64,000 nucleotides of DNA. Source: Nautilia sp. PV-1. GTDB lineage: Bacteria; Campylobacterota; Campylobacteria; Campylobacterales; Nautiliaceae. The translations under genes were made by a program, and so were the position numbers. Within the stretch, counting starts at the first letter, position 1. Each line of letters begins with the position of its first letter. Positions 3,597-60,633 of this stretch are shown here, piece after piece. The stretch spans positions 439,618-503,617 of the forward strand of contig NZ_CP026530.1 in NCBI RefSeq assembly GCF_004006315.1. Reading direction: 5' to 3'. The notes under the pieces were generated by a model. It did no database searches, was not told the DNA's origin, and worked only from the letters and a program-made list of their open reading frames with translations.

Positions 3597-3656
3597 AGTC
3601 GTATTTTACCATAATTAAGAATTGAAAAGTTAATAATAAAAAGTTAAAAATGAAAG

Positions 3657-3692
3657 AAAGTTATTAAAGTTATTGAAGTTATTAAAGGTTAA
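3657..3692 (+). repeat. Degenerate 9-nt tandem array (RAAGTTATT family)
   Basis: Consecutive 9-nt units on the plus strand are AAAGTTATT, AAAGTTATT, GAAGTTATT and AAAGGTTAA, with no C. A G-poor stretch at about 3700-3743 (ending AACTTAATAACTTT) is roughly its reverse complement, so the metK/trmH gap could form a long imperfect hairpin in the transcript. The unit matches the 9-mer array at 59868-59912 read on the other strand. Confidence 0.7.
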
Positions 3693-3746
3693 AATACATA
3701 AACTTAAACAACATTAAAAACTTCAAAACTTAATAACTTTAAATTT

Positions 3747-4895: not shown

Positions 4896-4944
4896 AATAA
4901 AATCTCCTTGAGAATTTTTAATTAGAAGTATAGCATAAAATGAG

Positions 4945-4976
4945 TTGTTAAGTTGATAAGTGGATAAGTTGTTAAG
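4945..4976 (+). repeat. Octamer array (TTGATAAG family)
   Basis: Four in-register octamers: TTGTTAAG, TTGATAAG, TGGATAAG, TTGTTAAG, containing no C. It lies in the gap upstream of metK. The same octamer family occurs at 7585-7624, 23519-23558 and, inverted, 23948-24011. Its complement includes TTATCCACT, one base off the classical DnaA box. Confidence 0.75.
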
Positions 4977-5012
4977 GGAAAAGTTAGAAGTGAAAAATTA
5001 CAGCTAAATAAA

Positions 5013-5047
5013 TCATTTTAAATTTTTCATTTTACACTTTTCATTTT
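5013..5047 (-). repeat. Heptamer array overlapping a gene's 3' end
   Basis: Five heptamers read on the plus strand: TCATTTT, AAATTTT, TCATTTT, ACACTTT, TCATTTT; no G on that strand. The third unit contains the stop codon (TGA on minus) of the small gene 5027-5287, so the last residues of that protein (KMKSVK) are encoded by the array. Confidence 0.7.
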
Positions 5048-5287
5048 TATGAGGCATTCTTTAGAGGCTTTTCTTATAAAATTCAATACTTCCGGAGATG
5101 CAGTGTTGTATGAAAAAAACTGATAAGTAAAACGGTTTGTTATTTTATTATAAACACATTCGCAGTATTGATATTTATTAGGCAGGGAGGATGTCTGCAT
5201 GCAGTTATGTATAAATTGGAATTTGAAATTCAGAGGATAATAAAAAGAAAAAGCAAAAAGGGGTAAAAAAAGCAGGAGCTTTTTCAT
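5027..5287 (-). CDS. Small exported hypothetical protein
   Basis: 86 residues with an N-terminal signal peptide (MKKLLLFLPLFAFSFYYPL) and three cysteines (CMQTS, CECVYN) that could form disulfides in the periplasm. The start codon overlaps the metE stop by one nucleotide (TAATG), so translation is probably coupled to metE. The C-terminus runs into a heptamer repeat array which provides the last codons and the stop, so the original 3' end may have been replaced. Unrecognised family. Confidence 0.6.
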   Translation of the reverse strand: MKKLLLFLPLFAFSFYYPLNFKFQFIHNCMQTSSLPNKYQYCECVYNKITNRFTYQFFSYNTASPEVLNFIRKASKECLIKMKSVK

Positions 5288-7545: not shown

Positions 7546-7584
7546 TAGTGTCCTTTTTTAAGCGGAATTATATCATAAAAAAAG

Positions 7585-7624
7585 TGGTTAAGTTGTGAAG
7601 AGGAGAAGTTGTGAAGAGGATAAT
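7585..7624 (+). repeat. Octamer array upstream of metE
   Basis: Five in-register octamers on the plus strand: TGGTTAAG, TTGTGAAG, AGGAGAAG, TTGTGAAG, AGGATAAT, with no C. Alternate units are nearly identical, giving a 16-nt higher-order repeat. It lies in the metE leader region on the non-template side for the minus-strand genes; the mRNA copy would be free of G. Confidence 0.75.
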
Positions 7625-7652
7625 TGTTTTTTTATGTTTTTCACAACATAAA

Positions 7653-8771
7653 TTATTCAACCTGTTTAAAAGCTCCGTCTATTATTCTGTAAAGTTTTGT
7701 TTTATAGTTTATCTGATTGTTAAATATATATATGTTAAAGTCGTTCATATAAAACTGGTCTTCTGAATTTTGTTTGTTGTATATTTTGTTGGCAAAAATA
7801 CAGGCCGCGTAATTCATCCAGTTGTATCTTATATCTGAATTAAGCAAAGAAGCATCTTCATTGATAATCAAAGGAGGATGAATTATGGAATTGGCAATAA
7901 GCAGTTTTTGAATATCCGCCGGCTGGGTCAGTACAATCATTAAAGGGTTATATCCCAGCTGCGGTGTCAGAGTAAGTTTGGTCTGGATTTCTTTTTGCGT
8001 AATGGTTGAAAGAACCTGGGCCGTTTTTCCTGCGCTTGTATTGAATATTACAAAAGAGTTGTTAAGATCCTGATAATAAATATTCGGAAATTGATATACG
8101 GTATGAATATACGTCAGATTTTTTTCGTAATTTAGCAGTTTGTCTGATAAAAGAGTATGGTCAGCTATTACATCCGTTTTATCGTCAATAAACGAAGTAA
8201 GTTTTTGTATCTGGTCTTTGAAATCGATTGAGCCGAAATAGATATTTTTAGCCGTTATGTTGGTTTCGTTTTTATTGATTAACGGCAGGTAAAACGTTTT
8301 GTTATAGTCTTTTAATTTGGACAGCTGGTTTACGTCTGTTGTAAAATAAATAATGTCTTTGCTTTTTATTTTTGAAAGATTTGTGTCTATATTATAAAGG
8401 GTAATATTGTAATCTATCCCTTTTTGGGCGTAATATGCATTCAGGGCGTTCATTAAAGAAGGAATAAATTTAAAAAATCTCTGTTTGTTAATAACCACTG
8501 TAAAAGAGGCTTTTGAATTAAAAGAGACATAAGTGTCGTTGAAATCTTCTACGTCTACAATAGCGGTATTGTTGGTTTCGTTTATTTCCGCGCTTGTGTT
8601 TGTTTCTGCAGTTATATTCGTGTCTGATACATTTGTTTTATTACTCTCGGCAATTACGGCGGTTTTGTTTGTTTCAGCCGAAGTTGTGTTTATATCGTTT
8701 GGAAGTTCGAAATTTAACTGCTGTGCGTTTAAAAATACCGCACATACTATTATTAACAGTTTTTTCATCAT
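7653..8771 (-). CDS. Exported hypothetical protein, binding-protein-like
   Basis: 372 residues. A signal peptide ([17 protein letters not shown]) is followed by an Asn/Thr/Glu-rich low-complexity segment (about 25-75, repeated NKT/NET words) and a globular remainder of alternating strands and helices. The pattern recalls periplasmic binding proteins of the LppC/amino-acid receptor kind, but no diagnostic motif is visible, so this is only an impression. Its start overlaps the stop of the uracil-DNA glycosylase gene by 4 nt, so it is the last gene of the aroB-mscS-udg operon. Confidence 0.65.
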   Translation of the reverse strand: MMKKLLIIVCAVFLNAQQLNFELPNDINTTSAETNKTAVIAESNKTNVSDTNITAETNTSAEINETNNTAIVDVEDFNDTYVSFNSKASFTVVINKQRFFKFIPSLMNALNAYYAQKGIDYNITLYNIDTNLSKIKSKDIIYFTTDVNQLSKLKDYNKTFYLPLINKNETNITAKNIYFGSIDFKDQIQKLTSFIDDKTDVIADHTLLSDKLLNYEKNLTYIHTVYQFPNIYYQDLNNSFVIFNTSAGKTAQVLSTITQKEIQTKLTLTPQLGYNPLMIVLTQPADIQKLLIANSIIHPPLIINEDASLLNSDIRYNWMNYAACIFANKIYNKQNSEDQFYMNDFNIYIFNNQINYKTKLYRIIDGAFKQVE

Positions 8772-21611: not shown

Positions 21612-21699
21612 TTTAAACCTCCGATTGAATTTCGCGCAAGTATATTCCTATAATATTAATTTATTATTAATATAAGATAAAATTATATTTAGGAGAGGG

Positions 21700-22440
21700 T
21701 TAATTTCTTATTTTGAAAAAACTGCTGCCGCTGCCTGTAAAGAAGCCTTTGTCCATATATTTATATAAATCAGGATATAAATTTAGGGCAGGCTTTAGAA
21801 GGTCGTTTAATTCGGAAGGAGTGTGATTGTTTAAAAGTTCGGCTGAATCTTTTTTATCAAAATCGGTATTTGAAGGGTTGAAGAATCTTTCTTTATACGT
21901 TTTGTATACATCAGGCGTAGAACATTCTATAGGAGGAGTAAATACTTCAATATCAAGAAGATTTTCGTCATATTTTTCTACTACATCTCCTCTTCCGTAT
22001 ACGTTTGCACTGTCATAGTCATAAATAAAAAACGCCACGTCGCTGCCTATTTTATTACCTATTTTTACAAGTTCCTCTTTTGAGAGATTAAGACCCGATT
22101 CTTTGTTTACCAGTCTTAAAAAAGCCGCTGCGTCGCTGCTTCCCCCTCCAAGTCCGGCCATTTCAGGAATGTTTTTATGTATTCTTATCTCTTTTCCTAT
22201 AAACCAGGGTTTAATATCCGGATACTCCTGTGTAAGTTCTACATAAGCTTTAAATACGCTGTTTTCCCTAAGGGCGCAGTTTATGTCTCCTACGATATTA
22301 AATTTTTCGGCTTCAACTATTTCTATTTCGTCATATAAATTTGCAACTTTCATAAATCTTGATTTAATAAGATGGTAAAAGCCGTCATGACCGACTATTT
22401 TTAAAAATATATTTACTTTTGCATGCGCTTTTATTTTCAC
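21700..22440 (-). CDS. ispE: 4-diphosphocytidyl-2-C-methyl-D-erythritol kinase
   Basis: 246 residues; phosphorylates CDP-methylerythritol in the non-mevalonate isoprenoid pathway. The GHMP-kinase ATP-binding loop MAGLGGGSSDAAAFLRL (about 92-108) is intact; the N-terminal KAHAKVNIFLKI and the C-terminal FFTGSGSSFF motif fit the family, though the protein is somewhat shorter than the about 283-residue E. coli enzyme, as in other Campylobacterota. It follows csrA by 2 nt in the same direction. Confidence 0.93.
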   Translation of the reverse strand: MKIKAHAKVNIFLKIVGHDGFYHLIKSRFMKVANLYDEIEIVEAEKFNIVGDINCALRENSVFKAYVELTQEYPDIKPWFIGKEIRIHKNIPEMAGLGGGSSDAAAFLRLVNKESGLNLSKEELVKIGNKIGSDVAFFIYDYDSANVYGRGDVVEKYDENLLDIEVFTPPIECSTPDVYKTYKERFFNPSNTDFDKKDSAELLNNHTPSELNDLLKPALNLYPDLYKYMDKGFFTGSGSSFFKIRN

Positions 22441-22442
22441 TG

Positions 22443-22673
22443 TTATCCTTTAAAAATATCGGAAATATTTTTTAATGTGTCTATATCGACTTCCTGTACT
22501 GCTTTTTTGTTTTCGGCGGTAATCTGCTCAATAAGCTCTGCTCTTAAAATAGGCACGTCTTTTGGCGCTTCTATACCAATTTTTACCTGATTTTTGTCGA
22601 TTGATATTATCGTTATTTCAATATCGTCGCCTATTTTGATTTTTTCGTTTATCTTCCTTGATATTACTAGCAT
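22443..22673 (-). CDS. csrA: Carbon storage regulator CsrA
   Basis: 76 residues. CsrA is a dimeric RNA-binding protein that recognises GGA in hairpin loops and controls translation of flagellin and metabolic genes; in Campylobacterota FliW antagonises it. Start [20 protein letters not shown] and the RNA-binding [18 protein letters not shown] equivalent ([18 protein letters not shown]) are clear. It has a longer C-terminal tail than E. coli CsrA (61). The start overlaps the truB end by 7 nt. Confidence 0.97.
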
Positions 22674-23581
22674 AGTTCAATCCTGTTCAAAATATAAGAT
22701 ACTTTATCTGATTCTATTTCTATAATAGCAAAAAATTTATCAAATTTTACATAATATTTGCCGTTTTTTTTAATTTTAAAATCATTTATGTTTAATTTTC
22801 TTCCGAGTATTAAATTTTCAATATCGTTTTCATAACTGTTTTCTTCCAGATCAAGATATTCGATAGGATTTAAAGGTTTTTCGCATTCATAATGAAATTT
22901 TCCTTCGTTTAACCTTTCAAGATATGTCAAAGCTCCGTTTACGCCCAGTTTTTTTGCAATGTCAAAACCCAGGCTTCTTATGTAGGTTCCTTCGCTTACG
23001 CTGGCTTTAAACGTAATAAAAGGATGGGAATAATTAATAAGTTCTATGTCAAATATCTCTATATCAACTTTTTTTTCCAAATATACGTTTTGAGATATAT
23101 TGTTCTCAATTCTCAATTCTCCATTCTCAATTAAATTGTAAGCTCTTTGTCCGTTTATTCTTTTGGCACTGTATTTAGGGGGCAGCTGTTTTTGAATTCC
23201 TTTAAATGAATTTAACGTTTCGATGATTTTTTCTTTTTCAAAAGGTTCGATATTTTCAATTTTTTCAATTTTTTCTATGTCTAAACTTTGAGAGTAAGCT
23301 CCAAGCATTAATGTAGCCAGATAAGTTTTCGGTGTTTTTTTTAAAAATCTGAAAAGTTTTGTGTACTGTCCGCTGGCTATAATAAGACATCCGCATGCAA
23401 AAGGATCGAGTGTTCCCGAAAATCCCATTTTTTTAATACCGTATTTTCTTTTTAGCCGGTTTAAAAATTTATTTGAACTTACGAACATCGGTTTGTTTGC
23501 TACAAACATAATATTGCGTTGTGAAGTGGACAAGTTGTTATGTTGTGAAGCGGAAGAGATATTTTTATGTTGATTATGCAT
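22667..23581 (-). CDS. truB: tRNA pseudouridine-55 synthase, with repeat-derived insertions
   Basis: 304 residues. It converts U55 in the T-loop of tRNAs. The catalytic motif [21 protein letters not shown] holds the catalytic Asp, and KINGQRAY and [10 protein letters not shown]-type motifs are present. Two parts look acquired: residues 1-24 ([20 protein letters not shown]...) are encoded by an octamer repeat array, and the ENGELRIEN segment after RAYNLI comes from heptamer units at 23105-23132. ATG 23581 overlaps the upstream stop by 8 nt and has AGGA 7 nt before it, so I use it; the ancestral start is probably Met25 (23509), which now lacks a Shine-Dalgarno. Confidence 0.9.
23105..23132 (-). 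repeat. Heptamer array inside truB
   Basis: Four heptamers, read on the minus (coding) strand as AATTGAG, AATGGAG, AATTGAG, AATTGAG, without C. They encode IENGELRIE in TruB, between the conserved RAY region and the following strand. The same unit occurs upstream of tgt at 13341-13361. Confidence 0.75.
23519..23558 (+). repeat. Octamer array, left flank of the four-helix-bundle gene
   Basis: Octamers on the plus strand: TTGTGAAG, TGGACAAG, TTGTTATG, TTGTGAAG, CGGAAGAG. They are the same family as at 4945 and 7585, and oriented opposite to the array at 23948-24011. GTTGTGAAGTG (23518-23528) has a perfect 11-nt reverse complement at 23957-23967, so the gene between is bracketed by inverted repeats. 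Confidence 0.75.
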
Positions 23582-23927
23582 ATCTTTTCCTGTTTAATAT
23601 AAGCGAATTAATCATTTTTTCAATTTCATTCAATAGATTTTCAATTTTAATATATTCACCATTAAAATTGAGCATTTTAGCTATTTCAATTTGTGTCTGA
23701 AGTTCATAAGTGGAACCTAAAGCAATTTGTAAGAACTGGATAAATTCTTTTTTGGTACCTCTTCCTCTGCCTTCTGCTATATTACTAGGAATAGATACTG
23801 CACTTCTTTTAATTTGAGATGTCAATCCGTAAATTTCTGTCTGTGGAAAATTTTTGCAAAGATTATAAATCTCTTTGACTAATTGCATAGATTTTTGCCA
23901 AACTATTAAATTTTTATATGTTGCCAT
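23574..23927 (-). CDS. Four-helix-bundle protein (S23/IVS family)
   Basis: 117 residues. MATYKNLIVWQKSMQLVKEIY, then FPQTEIYGLTSQIKRSAVSIPSNIAEG is the hallmark of the small four-helix-bundle proteins first found in 23S rRNA intervening sequences and structurally like the Avd protein of diversity-generating retroelements. They bind nucleic acid; their cellular role is unsettled. Here the gene sits in the truB-uvrD operon between two octamer arrays of opposite orientation. Its Shine-Dalgarno (AAAGGA) adjoins repeat sequence. No reverse transcriptase or rRNA is nearby. It looks like a later insertion. Confidence 0.9.
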   Translation of the reverse strand: MATYKNLIVWQKSMQLVKEIYNLCKNFPQTEIYGLTSQIKRSAVSIPSNIAEGRGRGTKKEFIQFLQIALGSTYELQTQIEIAKMLNFNGEYIKIENLLNEIEKMINSLILNRKRYA

Positions 23928-23947
23928 TATATTCCTTTTCTCCTACT

Positions 23948-24011
23948 CCACTTATTCACTTCACAACTTATCCACTTATCTACTTATCTACTTATCTACT
24001 TATCTACTTAT
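23948..24011 (-). repeat. Octamer array ending at the uvrD stop (possible VNTR)
   Basis: Eight in-register octamers read on the plus strand: CCACTTAT, TCACTTCA, CAACTTAT, CCACTTAT, then CTACTTAT four times without change. No G on this strand. The last unit ends one base before the uvrD stop codon (24013-24015). Four perfect copies of a unit not divisible by three make this a good candidate for copy-number variation. Contains TTATTCACT and TTATCCACT, resembling DnaA boxes. Confidence 0.85.
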
Positions 24012-24012
24012 T

Positions 24013-26010
24013 TCACGCTTTTTCTACAAAATCGCTTAGTATTTCTCTTATATTGTGTCCGAAATCTATTTTAAGTTTTGTTTTGTTTCCGGCTTTGTTT
24101 ATACCAAGAATTCTGCCGGTTCCGAATACTTTGTGTTTAACAAGCCCTCCTACTTTGAATGCTCCTCCGCTTGGAGCTTCTTTTAGATTTACCCTCTCGC
24201 CTTTAATAAGGCCGGCTTCCGTTAAAAAGCGGCTTTTCGAAACCCTGCTTCTCTGGCCTCTGATATATCTGCTCTGCACATAAGAAAGGGTGAGTTCTTT
24301 TTTGGCTCTTGTAATCGCCACATATGCAAGACGCCTTTCTTCTTCTATATCCGCTTCGTTTAAAGGGAAAAAGCCTTCTTCCATTCCTATTACAAAAAGA
24401 TGTTCAAATTCAAGGCCTTTGCTTGCATGTATTGTCATAACGTTTATCATTTCATCTGTTATTTTGTCCTGATCGCTTTCAAGGGAGAGCTCATTTAGAA
24501 ATTCTCTGAGGTTTAAATCTTTTCTTTCATGCATCATACCGTAAAACTCTTCAACGTTTCTTCTTTTGTCTTCGTCTTTGTAGCTTGTGCTGAGTTCCAG
24601 GGTTTTTTCAATGGCTTCAGGAAGCTCTTCTATTGACAGGGAGCTTAAAAACTGGATTGTTTTTTCAAAATCTTTTAATGTTTTTGCGGCTTTTTTGCTT
24701 AAAAATGAAAGATCGTTTTCTTTAATAAATTCAAGAAACGATTTTTCCCCTTTTGCTTCTTCGAGTTTTAATATGGTGGTTTTTCCTATTCCTCTTTTAG
24801 GTTTGTTAACTATTCTTTTAAACGAATAATCATCGTTTGGATTGACAAACACTCTCAAATAGCTTATTAAATCCTTAATTTCTTCTCTTTCGTAAAATCT
24901 CATGCCGCCTACGAGTTTATAGGTAATACCGTATGTTCTGAGTCCGTCTTCTATGGAACGTGAGAGGGCGTTTATTCTGTAAAGGATAGCTATGTCTTTT
25001 GGATTTACGCCTCTATTTATAAGGTTTTTAATCCGTTTTGCTATTGCTTCTGATTCGGCCATTTCATTATAATTTGACAGCAGTTCGATGGCTCTGCCGT
25101 CACCGATGGCCGATTTGAGTTTTTTGTCGTATCTTTGTTTATTGAAACTGATAAGGGAATTCGCCGCGTTTAAGATCTGATTTGTTGATCTGTAATTTGT
25201 TTCCAGTTTTATTACTTTTGCGTCAAAATCTTTTTCGAAATTCAGAATGTTTTTGTGGTTTGCGCCTCTGAATCCGTAAATTGATTGGTCGTCGTCTCCG
25301 ACAACGCATATGTTGTTGTGTGTTCTGCAGAGTTTTTTTAATAAAAGAAGCTGTATTTCGTTGGTATCCTGATATTCGTCAACCATAATATATTTGTATT
25401 TATCCGAAATTTCTCTGCACAGATCGTCGTTTTCATTTAATATGGTGTATGTTAAAAGAAGAAGGTCGTCAAAGTCGACTAAATTGTTTTCAAGCAGATA
25501 TTTTTGGTATTTGTCGTAAATATGGGCGAGTTTTTTATAAGTCGTGTCTTTTGCAAGGGAATAAACTTCATCGGCATTTAAAAAAGAGTTTTTATATTTA
25601 CTTATCTCTTTGCTTACAAACGAAAGAGGAAGATCTGTGGAGATAGATTTTAGTATCTTTTTTTGATCGTCACTGTCTATTATTACGAATGTGTTTTTTC
25701 TTCCGATTAAATGTATGTAAAGCTTTAAAAACATAAGTCCGAATTTATGAAAAGTGCTTAAAAGAGGAGGGTGCACCGCTCCGCCTTGTATCATTCTAAG
25801 CGCACGTTCTCGCATTTCGCTTGCCGCTTTATTTGTAAATGTTAGAGTAAGGGTGTTTGCAGGGTCGATACCGAGACTTAAAAGATAGGCAAGTCTTGTC
25901 GTAATAGTCTTTGTTTTCCCGCTTCCGGCTCCGGCTAATATTAATAAGGCTCCGTCTATATGTGTGGCCGCTTCTTTCTGTTCGTCGTTAAGTTCGTTTA
26001 AAAAGTCCAT
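24013..26010 (-). CDS. uvrD: UvrD/PcrA-type superfamily 1 DNA helicase
   Basis: 665 residues; 3'-5' helicase for nucleotide excision and mismatch repair and for clearing recombinase. Motif Q/I (LNDEQKEAAT; Walker A GAGSGKT at 27-33), motif Ia, motif II VDEYQDTNEIQ, motif III GDDDQSIYGFRGA, motif IV-V (ETNYRS, VMTIHASKGLEF) and motif VI (RLAYVAITRAKKEL) are all present. The C-terminal KVFGTGRILGI is a Tudor-like segment known from PcrA/UvrD. The gene is divergent from a LysR regulator and ends at an octamer array. Confidence 0.96.
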   Translation of the reverse strand: MDFLNELNDEQKEAATHIDGALLILAGAGSGKTKTITTRLAYLLSLGIDPANTLTLTFTNKAASEMRERALRMIQGGAVHPPLLSTFHKFGLMFLKLYIHLIGRKNTFVIIDSDDQKKILKSISTDLPLSFVSKEISKYKNSFLNADEVYSLAKDTTYKKLAHIYDKYQKYLLENNLVDFDDLLLLTYTILNENDDLCREISDKYKYIMVDEYQDTNEIQLLLLKKLCRTHNNICVVGDDDQSIYGFRGANHKNILNFEKDFDAKVIKLETNYRSTNQILNAANSLISFNKQRYDKKLKSAIGDGRAIELLSNYNEMAESEAIAKRIKNLINRGVNPKDIAILYRINALSRSIEDGLRTYGITYKLVGGMRFYEREEIKDLISYLRVFVNPNDDYSFKRIVNKPKRGIGKTTILKLEEAKGEKSFLEFIKENDLSFLSKKAAKTLKDFEKTIQFLSSLSIEELPEAIEKTLELSTSYKDEDKRRNVEEFYGMMHERKDLNLREFLNELSLESDQDKITDEMINVMTIHASKGLEFEHLFVIGMEEGFFPLNEADIEEERRLAYVAITRAKKELTLSYVQSRYIRGQRSRVSKSRFLTEAGLIKGERVNLKEAPSGGAFKVGGLVKHKVFGTGRILGINKAGNKTKLKIDFGHNIREILSDFVEKA

Positions 26011-54304: not shown

Positions 54305-54486
54305 TTATTGCCTTTTTATTTTTTAATTCTCTTATTAAGAAATTATACATAATTTATATACTTATTTAGTGTCTGGCGTTATCCCAGCTATTATTATTTT
54401 ATTGAGTTAACGATTGAGTTGTTGTGTGTTGAATCCTGTGTTTAAAATTTAAATTCTTAGATGTTATTTTCAAACCGTTAATTATA

Positions 54487-59583: not shown

Positions 59584-59907
59584 ATATTTGTGGATTCTTA
59601 ATTAGTAACTGGTAGCTGGTAGATGGTAGATGGTGGATGGCAGATAGTTGATGGTGGATAGTTAATGGTGAATGGGGAATTAAGCTCCGAGTACCGGGTT
59701 CCCAGTTTAAGGTACCGGGTTGTGAGTTTTGAAAACACTTAGGTGCCTGACACCAATAATTCCGAAAACCTAACTAATTATAATTAGCTCAACAACTTCC
59801 AAACTTCAATAACTTTAGTAACCTTAAAAAACCATAACAACTTAATTAACTATAACAACTTTTAATTAACCTCAACAACCTTAATAACCTCAATAACCTT
59901 AATAACC
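59584..59907. other. Gene-free 324-nt segment made of short tandem words
   Basis: No ORF or RNA gene. From left to right: ten heptamers (59608-59677), then a 21-nt-spaced direct repeat GTACCGGGTT (59691-59700 and 59712-59721), a near-palindrome GGTGCCTGACACC (59742-59754), and loosely 9-nt periodic AACTTNAAT words from about 59800 that tighten into the 9-mer array at 59868-59912. It is the richest repeat patch of the window. Confidence 0.7.
59608..59677 (+). repeat. Ten degenerate heptamers (GATGGTR/GATAGTT)
   Basis: In register: ACTGGTA, GCTGGTA, GATGGTA, GATGGTG, GATGGCA, GATAGTT, GATGGTG, GATAGTT, AATGGTG, AATGGGG. Three C in 70 nt. Alternation of GATGGTG and GATAGTT suggests a 14-nt duplication step. 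Same family as 44514-44562 and 54487-54549. Confidence 0.85.
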
Positions 59908-59912
59908 TCAAT
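59868..59912 (-). repeat. Five 9-nt units overlapping a gene's stop codon
   Basis: Read on the plus strand: AACCTCAAC, AACCTTAAT, AACCTCAAT, AACCTTAAT, AACCTCAAT; alternate units are identical (18-nt higher order), and there is no G. The fifth unit contains the stop codon (TGA on minus, 59908-59910) of the nucleoside-phosphorylase-like gene. Confidence 0.85.
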
Positions 59913-60633
59913 AACTTTTACTCAACGATTCTAAAAACTTTTTAACTTCTTCTTTTTTCTTTACTTCTTTAAAAGTGGGGAAGGGGATGTTTTTTATTTT
60001 ATAAAGAGTAAGAAGCTGTTTTAATTGGTTTTCCTGTGTTTTTGTAAGTTGCATTTTATTTTTTGCTTCTGTTAAGGCATTATTTATTTCATTAAAAAAA
60101 TCGTTTTTTTCTGCTGTTTGCATTATCAGGTTTTCAATTGTATTAAGATGTGATTTGATAAGTTCCGGTATTTCATTTTTGTCTGCTTTATGAGAAGGTG
60201 TATCACTGACGATTTTGTATAAGATTATTTCATTTACGTTTAGAAATTTATATGCCGCTTCAAAAAAGCCGCTTGATTCCATATCTGTCAGAGTATAATA
60301 TTTTCCAAGAGCTGAAACGGTATAAATTTCTTCACTGTTTTCGTTAAAGTAATCCGGAAAATAATTAAATCCTGTGTCGGTATCGGTAATTTTATGGATA
60401 AAAAAGCCTCTTCCTGTTTCATGTTTATTGCTTCCGGCTAAGCCGATGTTTAAAGTCGGAAAGCGGTGTTTTGAAAGCAGCAGGGCGGTGTTAACAGCAC
60501 ATTTAATTTTTCCCTGGCCTGTAATTATTAAATTGATATTTTCGTTTTGATAAATGCCGTTTCTTGACTTTAATTGAAAATAATTTATAATAGGATCGGC
60601 TTCTATTTTAAGAGCGGTTACAATGTTTAACAT
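59908..60633 (-). CDS. Nucleoside-phosphorylase-like protein
   Basis: 241 residues. The N-terminal about 180 residues follow the purine nucleoside phosphorylase / MTA-SAH nucleosidase fold: MLNIVTALKIEADPII, LIITGQGKIKCAVNTALLL, NIGLAGS and the substrate-binding TDMESSGFFEAAYKF, plus IVSDTPSH. The last about 60 residues are a charged helical extension ending in repeat-encoded sequence (KSY). A nucleoside or base hydrolase/phosphorylase is expected; the substrate is unknown. Stop codon lies in a 9-mer array. Confidence 0.82.
   Translation of the reverse strand: MLNIVTALKIEADPIINYFQLKSRNGIYQNENINLIITGQGKIKCAVNTALLLSKHRFPTLNIGLAGSNKHETGRGFFIHKITDTDTGFNYFPDYFNENSEEIYTVSALGKYYTLTDMESSGFFEAAYKFLNVNEIILYKIVSDTPSHKADKNEIPELIKSHLNTIENLIMQTAEKNDFFNEINNALTEAKNKMQLTKTQENQLKQLLTLYKIKNIPFPTFKEVKKKEEVKKFLESLSKSY

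Follow-up and report, generated by a model that had tools for sequence, protein, structure and literature searches.

Inverted heptamer and octamer arrays around S23 four-helix-bundle genes: a cassette between uvrD and truB of Nautilia sp. PV-1 and its relatives in other operons

The closest described counterparts of the locus analysed here are the intervening sequences (IVSs) of 23S rRNA that carry an S23 ORF, as in Leptospira and Coxiella, in which a unit of about 0.45-0.5 kb holds the ORF in a loop between inverted ends. In the Coxiella IVS, GACAGAT heptamers precede S23p, and the first of them is where RNase III cuts (PMC4990558). Many genomes annotate this family as 'four helix bundle protein' or 'S23 ribosomal protein', and the matched models assign no function to it. 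Arrays of degenerate tandem 7- or 8-mers that form inverted pairs with variable spacing have been described from Xanthomonas and Geobacter with no mention of S23 genes, as regulator sites or G-quadruplex repeats (PMC4692102, PMC2700814); in particular, the paired octamer arrays of Geobacter metallireducens were interpreted as putative binding sites for a global regulator (PMC2700814). Partial parallels are also offered by the REP/RAYT and MITE systems, with their short intergenic palindromic units that are possibly mobilised in trans, by the Avd and bAvd proteins of diversity-generating retroelements (DGRs), which belong to a related fold family, and by the cyanobacterial STRR heptamers, which likewise form intergenic tandem arrays. 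STRRs are known as gene-less repeats. Here we analyse an S23 gene found in a window of 64,000 nucleotides from Nautilia sp. PV-1 (contig NZ_CP026530.1, positions 439,618 to 503,617), whose genome of 1.79 Mb is a single contig, and compare it with S23 loci of other bacteria.

The S23 locus at the uvrD-truB junction

The order of genes on the minus strand is uvrD, S23 gene, truB (Table 1). Profile searches with the 117 aa product gave 137.8 bits for PF05635 (cut-off 33.8) and 136.8 bits for TIGR02436 (cut-off 24), which places it in the S23/IVP family and agrees with the assignment made in an earlier sequence-only reading. Two relatives have solved structures, PDB 2gsc and 2rld, and the five chains in each entry would fit a pentamer. 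That reading had also pointed to a partnership with retroelements. The protein gives weak hits to the Avd and bAvd models, but falls under both cut-offs (26.6 bits against 80 for DGR Avd), and a search for RVT_1 proteins gave none in the host (G000) or in three further genomes (G018, G019 and G021); a role as a retroelement partner was accordingly rejected.

The 5' arm (65 nt) begins immediately past the uvrD stop codon, and Tandem Repeats Finder (TRF) reports it with period 8 and 97% matches at 23966-24011. The 3' arm is located upstream of the conserved truB start, and its units on the plus strand are GTTGTGAA GTGGACAA GTTGTTAT GTTGTGAA GCGGAAGA. The word GTTGTGAAGTG at 23518-23528 has, as had been noticed at the outset, an exact reverse complement, CACTTCACAAC, at 23957-23967, and the longest match between the arms covers 27 nt at 81%, so that the ORF is framed by inverted complementary ends. 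The tandem (lag-8) score of 36 was reached by 0 of 300-500 dinucleotide shuffles (null maximum 11); the left-versus-right inverted alignment score of 14.5 has p = 0.002 with 150-nt flanks and was reached by 0/2000 shuffles with 130-nt flanks, and flanks scoring at least 14 are found at about 1.7% of 414 genes of the host and two related genomes. Neither the octamer periodicity nor the inverted match arises by chance, and the picture of an S23-type gene bracketed by oppositely oriented octamer arrays between uvrD and truB holds by profiles, TRF and shuffles. A stem formed by the two arms is predicted in RNA (z = -2.0). The truB open frame (22667-23581) extends back across the 3' arm; it opens with an ATG at 23581, which shares bases with the stop codon of the S23 gene, and truB relatives align only from about residue 20-23.

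Table 1. Features of the S23 locus and gene-less inverted array pairs of the window
Feature	Position	Strand	Remarks
truB, downstream host gene	22667..23509	-	PF01509; conserved part from MFVANKP
Arm, gene's 3' side	23518..23558	-	five degenerate octamers, inverted orientation, 41 nt
S23/IVP four-helix-bundle protein gene, 117 aa	23574..23927	-	PF05635 1.9e-40, TIGR02436 3e-40
Arm, gene's 5' side	23947..24011	-	about eight degenerate octamers, GATAAGTA-type on gene's sense strand
uvrD/pcrA helicase, upstream host gene	24013..26010	-	PF00580/PF13361
Gene-less inverted array pair	3625..3743	.	p < 0.001; nearly identical in G018
Gene-less inverted array pair	7580..7660	.	p = 0.03; same place in G018, word changed

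In 20 of the 21 genomes of the family uvrD lies next to truB, the exception being G020, where the stretch fetched held no uvrD. The S23 gene is present at this junction in only two of the 21, namely the host and G019 of the same genus, and the two proteins have 86% amino acid identity. Five relatives (G009, G012, G003, G004 and G006) possess a short direct junction. Five others, i.e. the congener G018 (1,676,444 bp), G016, G013, G017 and G014, display purine-rich array-like sequence at the junction and no S23 gene, and in G016 none was found in the genome at all. Alignment of the truB-uvrD junctions of relatives, the check suggested beforehand, thus confirmed the presence or absence of the gene, and the guess that roughly 500 bp are extra here was right in that the two genes are adjacent or nearly so in most relatives. 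Since gene-less arrays or hairpins occur at the same junctions in relatives (see also Flavobacterium below), the arrays are not only cassette ends. A TTCTCAA heptamer array is also found in frame within truB itself (23103..23132) and is conserved in G018; a word similar to it makes up the gene-less array at the G018 junction, and the truB of G017 is split in the region of this array.

The host genome contains five S23 copies, four of which have significant arms. The repeat words differ among the copies (GTTGAAG in L002, p = 0.006; AAGTAGT in L003, a decayed gene, p = 0.009; TTGAGAA in L025, p < 0.001), and there is hence no fixed end sequence of the kind that typifies transposons and MITEs. 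The prediction that the other genomic copies would also carry flanking arrays is correct for these, and fails at L004 alone of the five, which has no significant arms in the inverted-arm test (p = 0.54), so that one of the refuting observations named beforehand was made in part. At one efflux-pump gene pair, S23 genes occur in the host (L025), G018 (L016) and G001 (L010) with words that differ between the genomes, each being matched in both arms.

Inverted arms at S23 genes across phyla

In a first set of 80 S23 loci from many phyla, inverted left-versus-right alignment of the flanks gave a median score of 14, against 8.5 for neighbouring genes (p = 2e-18), and there was no enrichment of arms in direct orientation. 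In an enlarged set of 172 loci from about nine phyla, assessed by per-locus dinucleotide shuffles with 155 neighbouring genes as controls, significant inverted arms were recovered at 103 of the 172 S23 loci (60%) and at four of the 155 control genes (2.6%), while significant direct-orientation arms were seen at 13 of the 172. Inverted 7- or 8-mer arrays are thus a general trait of S23 genes and no accident of the Nautilia locus. About 40% of the loci lack significant arms, including L004 and most of the Clostridia sampled, which form the exception with five positive loci of 29. Certain clostridial loci (L299, L301, L303, L305 and L306) belong to an S23 subfamily that has repeats upstream only, with the downstream arm absent; these repeats are small hairpins linked by GCTAAATT or ATATCACT.

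The best periods are 7 (59 arms), 8 (28), 14 (19) and 16 (14), with about 10 for all remaining ones, and at 74 of 76 loci both arms have a common period. By visual inspection the consensus unit is TAGKNNN at period 7 and RAGKNNNN at period 8, and an AG core is present in 52 of 57 arrays. The 5'-side arm is usually the G-rich strand and the 3'-side arm the C-rich strand. No paper on the association of S23 genes with such arrays was found in the open-access literature, outside which most subscription papers lie; judged against that literature, these results suggest a kind of selfish cassette that is widespread and for the most part undescribed.

The same architecture is seen inside rRNA. One genome of the Campylobacterota has three S23 matches of identical score, and the locus fetched (L323) lies inside the LSU rRNA, i.e. 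in 23S rRNA, its ends being inverted heptamer arrays (ACAGATT/ACAGAAT) that score 30 against a null maximum of 14. L323 and the Coxiella IVS together indicate that operon cassettes and rRNA IVSs have the gene, the size and the arm architecture in common. The window locus differs from the rRNA IVSs in that it is located not in a 23S rRNA helix but between uvrD and truB, in a protein-coding operon, and in that its arms are longer degenerate arrays.

With respect to genomic context, 132 of the 164 S23 loci with close neighbours lie in sense orientation between two co-directional genes and only four are antisense; the median gaps to the neighbours are 62 and 42 nt. This sense bias within operons fits a promoterless gene living off host transcripts. 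The sites include uvrD-truB, leuA-leuB, hldE-hldD, an efflux-pump pair and a kinase-regulator pair. In Bacteroidota, two cassettes (L094 and L114) are found beside leuB, that of L094 being between leuA and leuB. Two paralogs of G028 (L167 and L171) lie in unrelated places, and their common part is restricted to the gene with 28 nt and 16 nt of arm, as would be the case with a unit that ends in the arms. At a junction of the prsK-prsR (kinase-regulator) type, two related species possess different S23 families with different arms. At a Flavobacterium junction most S23 copies are orthologous and look vertically inherited, which is not what a freely jumping cassette would give; four loci there (L198, L207, L210 and L238) carry a different S23 type, and many gene-less species display a small inverted hairpin. 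No clean empty site with a target duplication was found at the uvrD-truB, Flavobacterium or prsK-prsR type junctions; at the first two the junctions of relatives are changed or array-filled. Movement of the cassettes thus seems rare. Spread by plasmids or phages was rejected, as S23 matches occur in 30 of 72,556 plasmid records, mostly cyanobacterial, and in none of 50,697 phage records. One of the plasmid genes, from Nostoc (L351), is framed by inverted AGTAGGG arrays. A role in anti-phage defence was likewise rejected, as PADLOC gave no match.

Joint change of the arms and descent of the period

Each locus has its own repeat word, common to its two arms. Among the 80 loci the own arms score 14, against 8 for arms exchanged between loci. 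At the Flavobacterium junction, of which 97 examples were read (44 with S23), the corresponding scores are 16.5 and 9.5 (p = 1.5e-8), and the difference persists when exchange is limited to species of the same repeat framework (p = 0.003); in this set both arms switch jointly between CTRAG and CARAG frameworks.

The period was mapped on an S23 tree of 123 loci, with the Flavobacterium site cut to three. It changes 12 times, and 14 times by a second tree method, whereas shuffling the periods inside each phylum gives 25.3 +/- 1.9 changes (minimum 18 among 500 shuffles). For 19 of 27 period-8 loci the nearest relative in another phylum is also period-8, against 5.1 expected (maximum 18 of 300); with both periods pooled, the nearest-relative agreement of 88/119 is only slightly above that of shuffles (77 +/- 7). 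Thus, the arm period is shown to be a heritable trait of the S23 lineage, which tracks the S23 tree rather than the host phylum. This link is explained if the gene and its arms have descended together, and recognition of the repeat by the protein would explain it too.

Mismatches between the arms bear on how their symmetry is kept. On the sense strand A.C mismatches (97) exceed G.U mismatches (54; p = 6e-4), which gives no sign of selection for RNA pairing; selection for an RNA helix on that strand was therefore rejected, and the symmetry is more likely to be kept by copying at the DNA level. A role of the arms in supplying stop codons was also rejected: 5' arms stop 1.98 frames against 1.55 in shuffles and 3' arms 1.41 against 0.99, so that the excess is alike in both, and the neighbouring gene's frame does not stand out.

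Nature of the cassettes and the alternatives

The arms recovered by the survey, the link of period and S23 tree, the likeness to rRNA IVSs and the sense bias in operons together argue for an IVS-type cassette outside rRNA, and not for a transposon. We therefore consider it probable that the S23 gene and its two arms constitute one evolutionary unit, a selfish cassette of the IVS type that resides in an operon instead of 23S rRNA. A possible mechanism can be outlined by comparison with the described systems. The S23 gene would lack a promoter of its own and be made from the host transcript, and the S23 pentamer might recognise the iterated unit, which would account for the period tracking the protein. 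The two ends of the cassette would be brought together as a hairpin; by analogy with the rRNA case RNase III might then cut the cassette out of the RNA, an excision that would be harmless because the cassette sits between cistrons. Copying between the arms, by template switching in the quasi-palindrome, along with slippage, might keep the words matched. Insertion would be rare, and once the gene was lost arrays or a small hairpin would remain. More speculatively, and with distinctly less confidence than we place in the unit itself, S23 proteins might be ring-shaped readers of 7- or 8-nt units, the period being set by the geometry of each lineage, which together with the arrays form promoterless, operon-dwelling selfish cassettes across phyla, with the rRNA IVSs as their best-known members. 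The gene-less arrays and hairpins of many genomes would then be relics or dependants of such cassettes.

The arrays might instead be independent intergenic repeats, quasi-palindromes of the REP-, MITE- or STRR-like kind that expand by slippage and keep their symmetry by template switching, S23 genes merely landing or surviving there with no part in making them. Gene-less arrays are indeed common in these genomes, both at the same junctions in relatives, as in G016 with no S23 gene found, and elsewhere in the window (Table 1), the mismatch counts lend selection at the RNA level no support, and the inverted pairs of Xanthomonas and Geobacter were described without S23 (PMC4692102, PMC2700814). 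Independent repeats are however at odds with the strong enrichment at S23 genes over their neighbours, with a period that tracks the S23 clade across phyla and with the identical architecture of the 23S rRNA IVS, and we regard this explanation as rather unlikely.

It is also conceivable that the arrays serve as binding sites for the S23 protein or for a host factor in the regulation of its own transcript, which would make this a regulatory gene rather than a selfish element. The interpretation given to the Geobacter arrays (PMC2700814) is of this kind, and units spaced 7-8 nt apart would suit a ring-shaped protein such as the five-chain solved relatives suggest. On the other hand, the words differ between paralogs of one genome, and most relatives lack the gene, which is found in unrelated operons, so that no common regulon is seen; regulation accordingly appears improbable.

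Degenerate ends, as in the original interpretation of the locus, might also mark a conventional DNA cassette or a transposon-like element moved by a transposase acting in trans. This would fit the G028 paralogs and the different S23 families at one junction in related species, but is very improbable in view of the varying end sequences, the want of target duplications, the rarity in plasmids and the lack of any phage match, the strong sense bias, where insertion in either direction would be expected of symmetrical DNA ends, and the different palindrome, GTGTCTGGCAC, upstream of the host's single-copy Y1 transposase gene. This RAYT-like gene, of which there is one copy per Nautiliaceae genome tested, has no arrays, and unlike REP units the cassette arms have no fixed sequence; with a palindrome of its own in the Y1 flanks, the RAYT/Y1 transposase was rejected as the mobiliser. 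A cassette whose ends are degenerate repeats, as first proposed, was a fair description to the extent that L167 and L171 share gene and arm only, and less so for the gene-less arrays at the same junctions and the mostly vertical Flavobacterium copies; the locus is better filed as a non-rRNA variant of the IVS/S23 element.

If the unit proves general, the rRNA intervening sequences would be one habitat of a widespread operon-dwelling element, and no ribosomal curiosity, and an origin would be at hand for some of the 7- and 8-mer arrays that stand unexplained in several phyla. Because repeat period goes with protein clade, binding could be tested directly. The unit may also account for the S23 family having been reported as a 'novel association' of CRISPR adaptation modules (PMC10910872). 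On a plasmid of Pseudanabaena galeata, an S23 gene (L349) is found between cas6 and cas4 with long AAAAGCT arrays.

Several smaller observations concern the rest of the window. An intergenic array at 4943-5050, with no S23 gene, occupies the same position in G018, its inverted pair not being significant in the host (p = 0.13); here and at 7580-7660 the words are changed on both sides in G018. The region of G018 that matches 21689-21714 contains a rhodanese-like gene of about 580 bp, without arrays, that the window does not have there. At 59600-59918 a GGTAGAT heptamer array and a AACCTTAAT nonamer array of opposite base composition are separated by about 130 bp in which no gene could be detected. 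Finally, GTGTCTGGC / GTGCCTGACAC palindromes at 54369 and 59743-59755 are found beside 7- to 9-mer arrays and resemble those upstream of the Y1 gene (L359).
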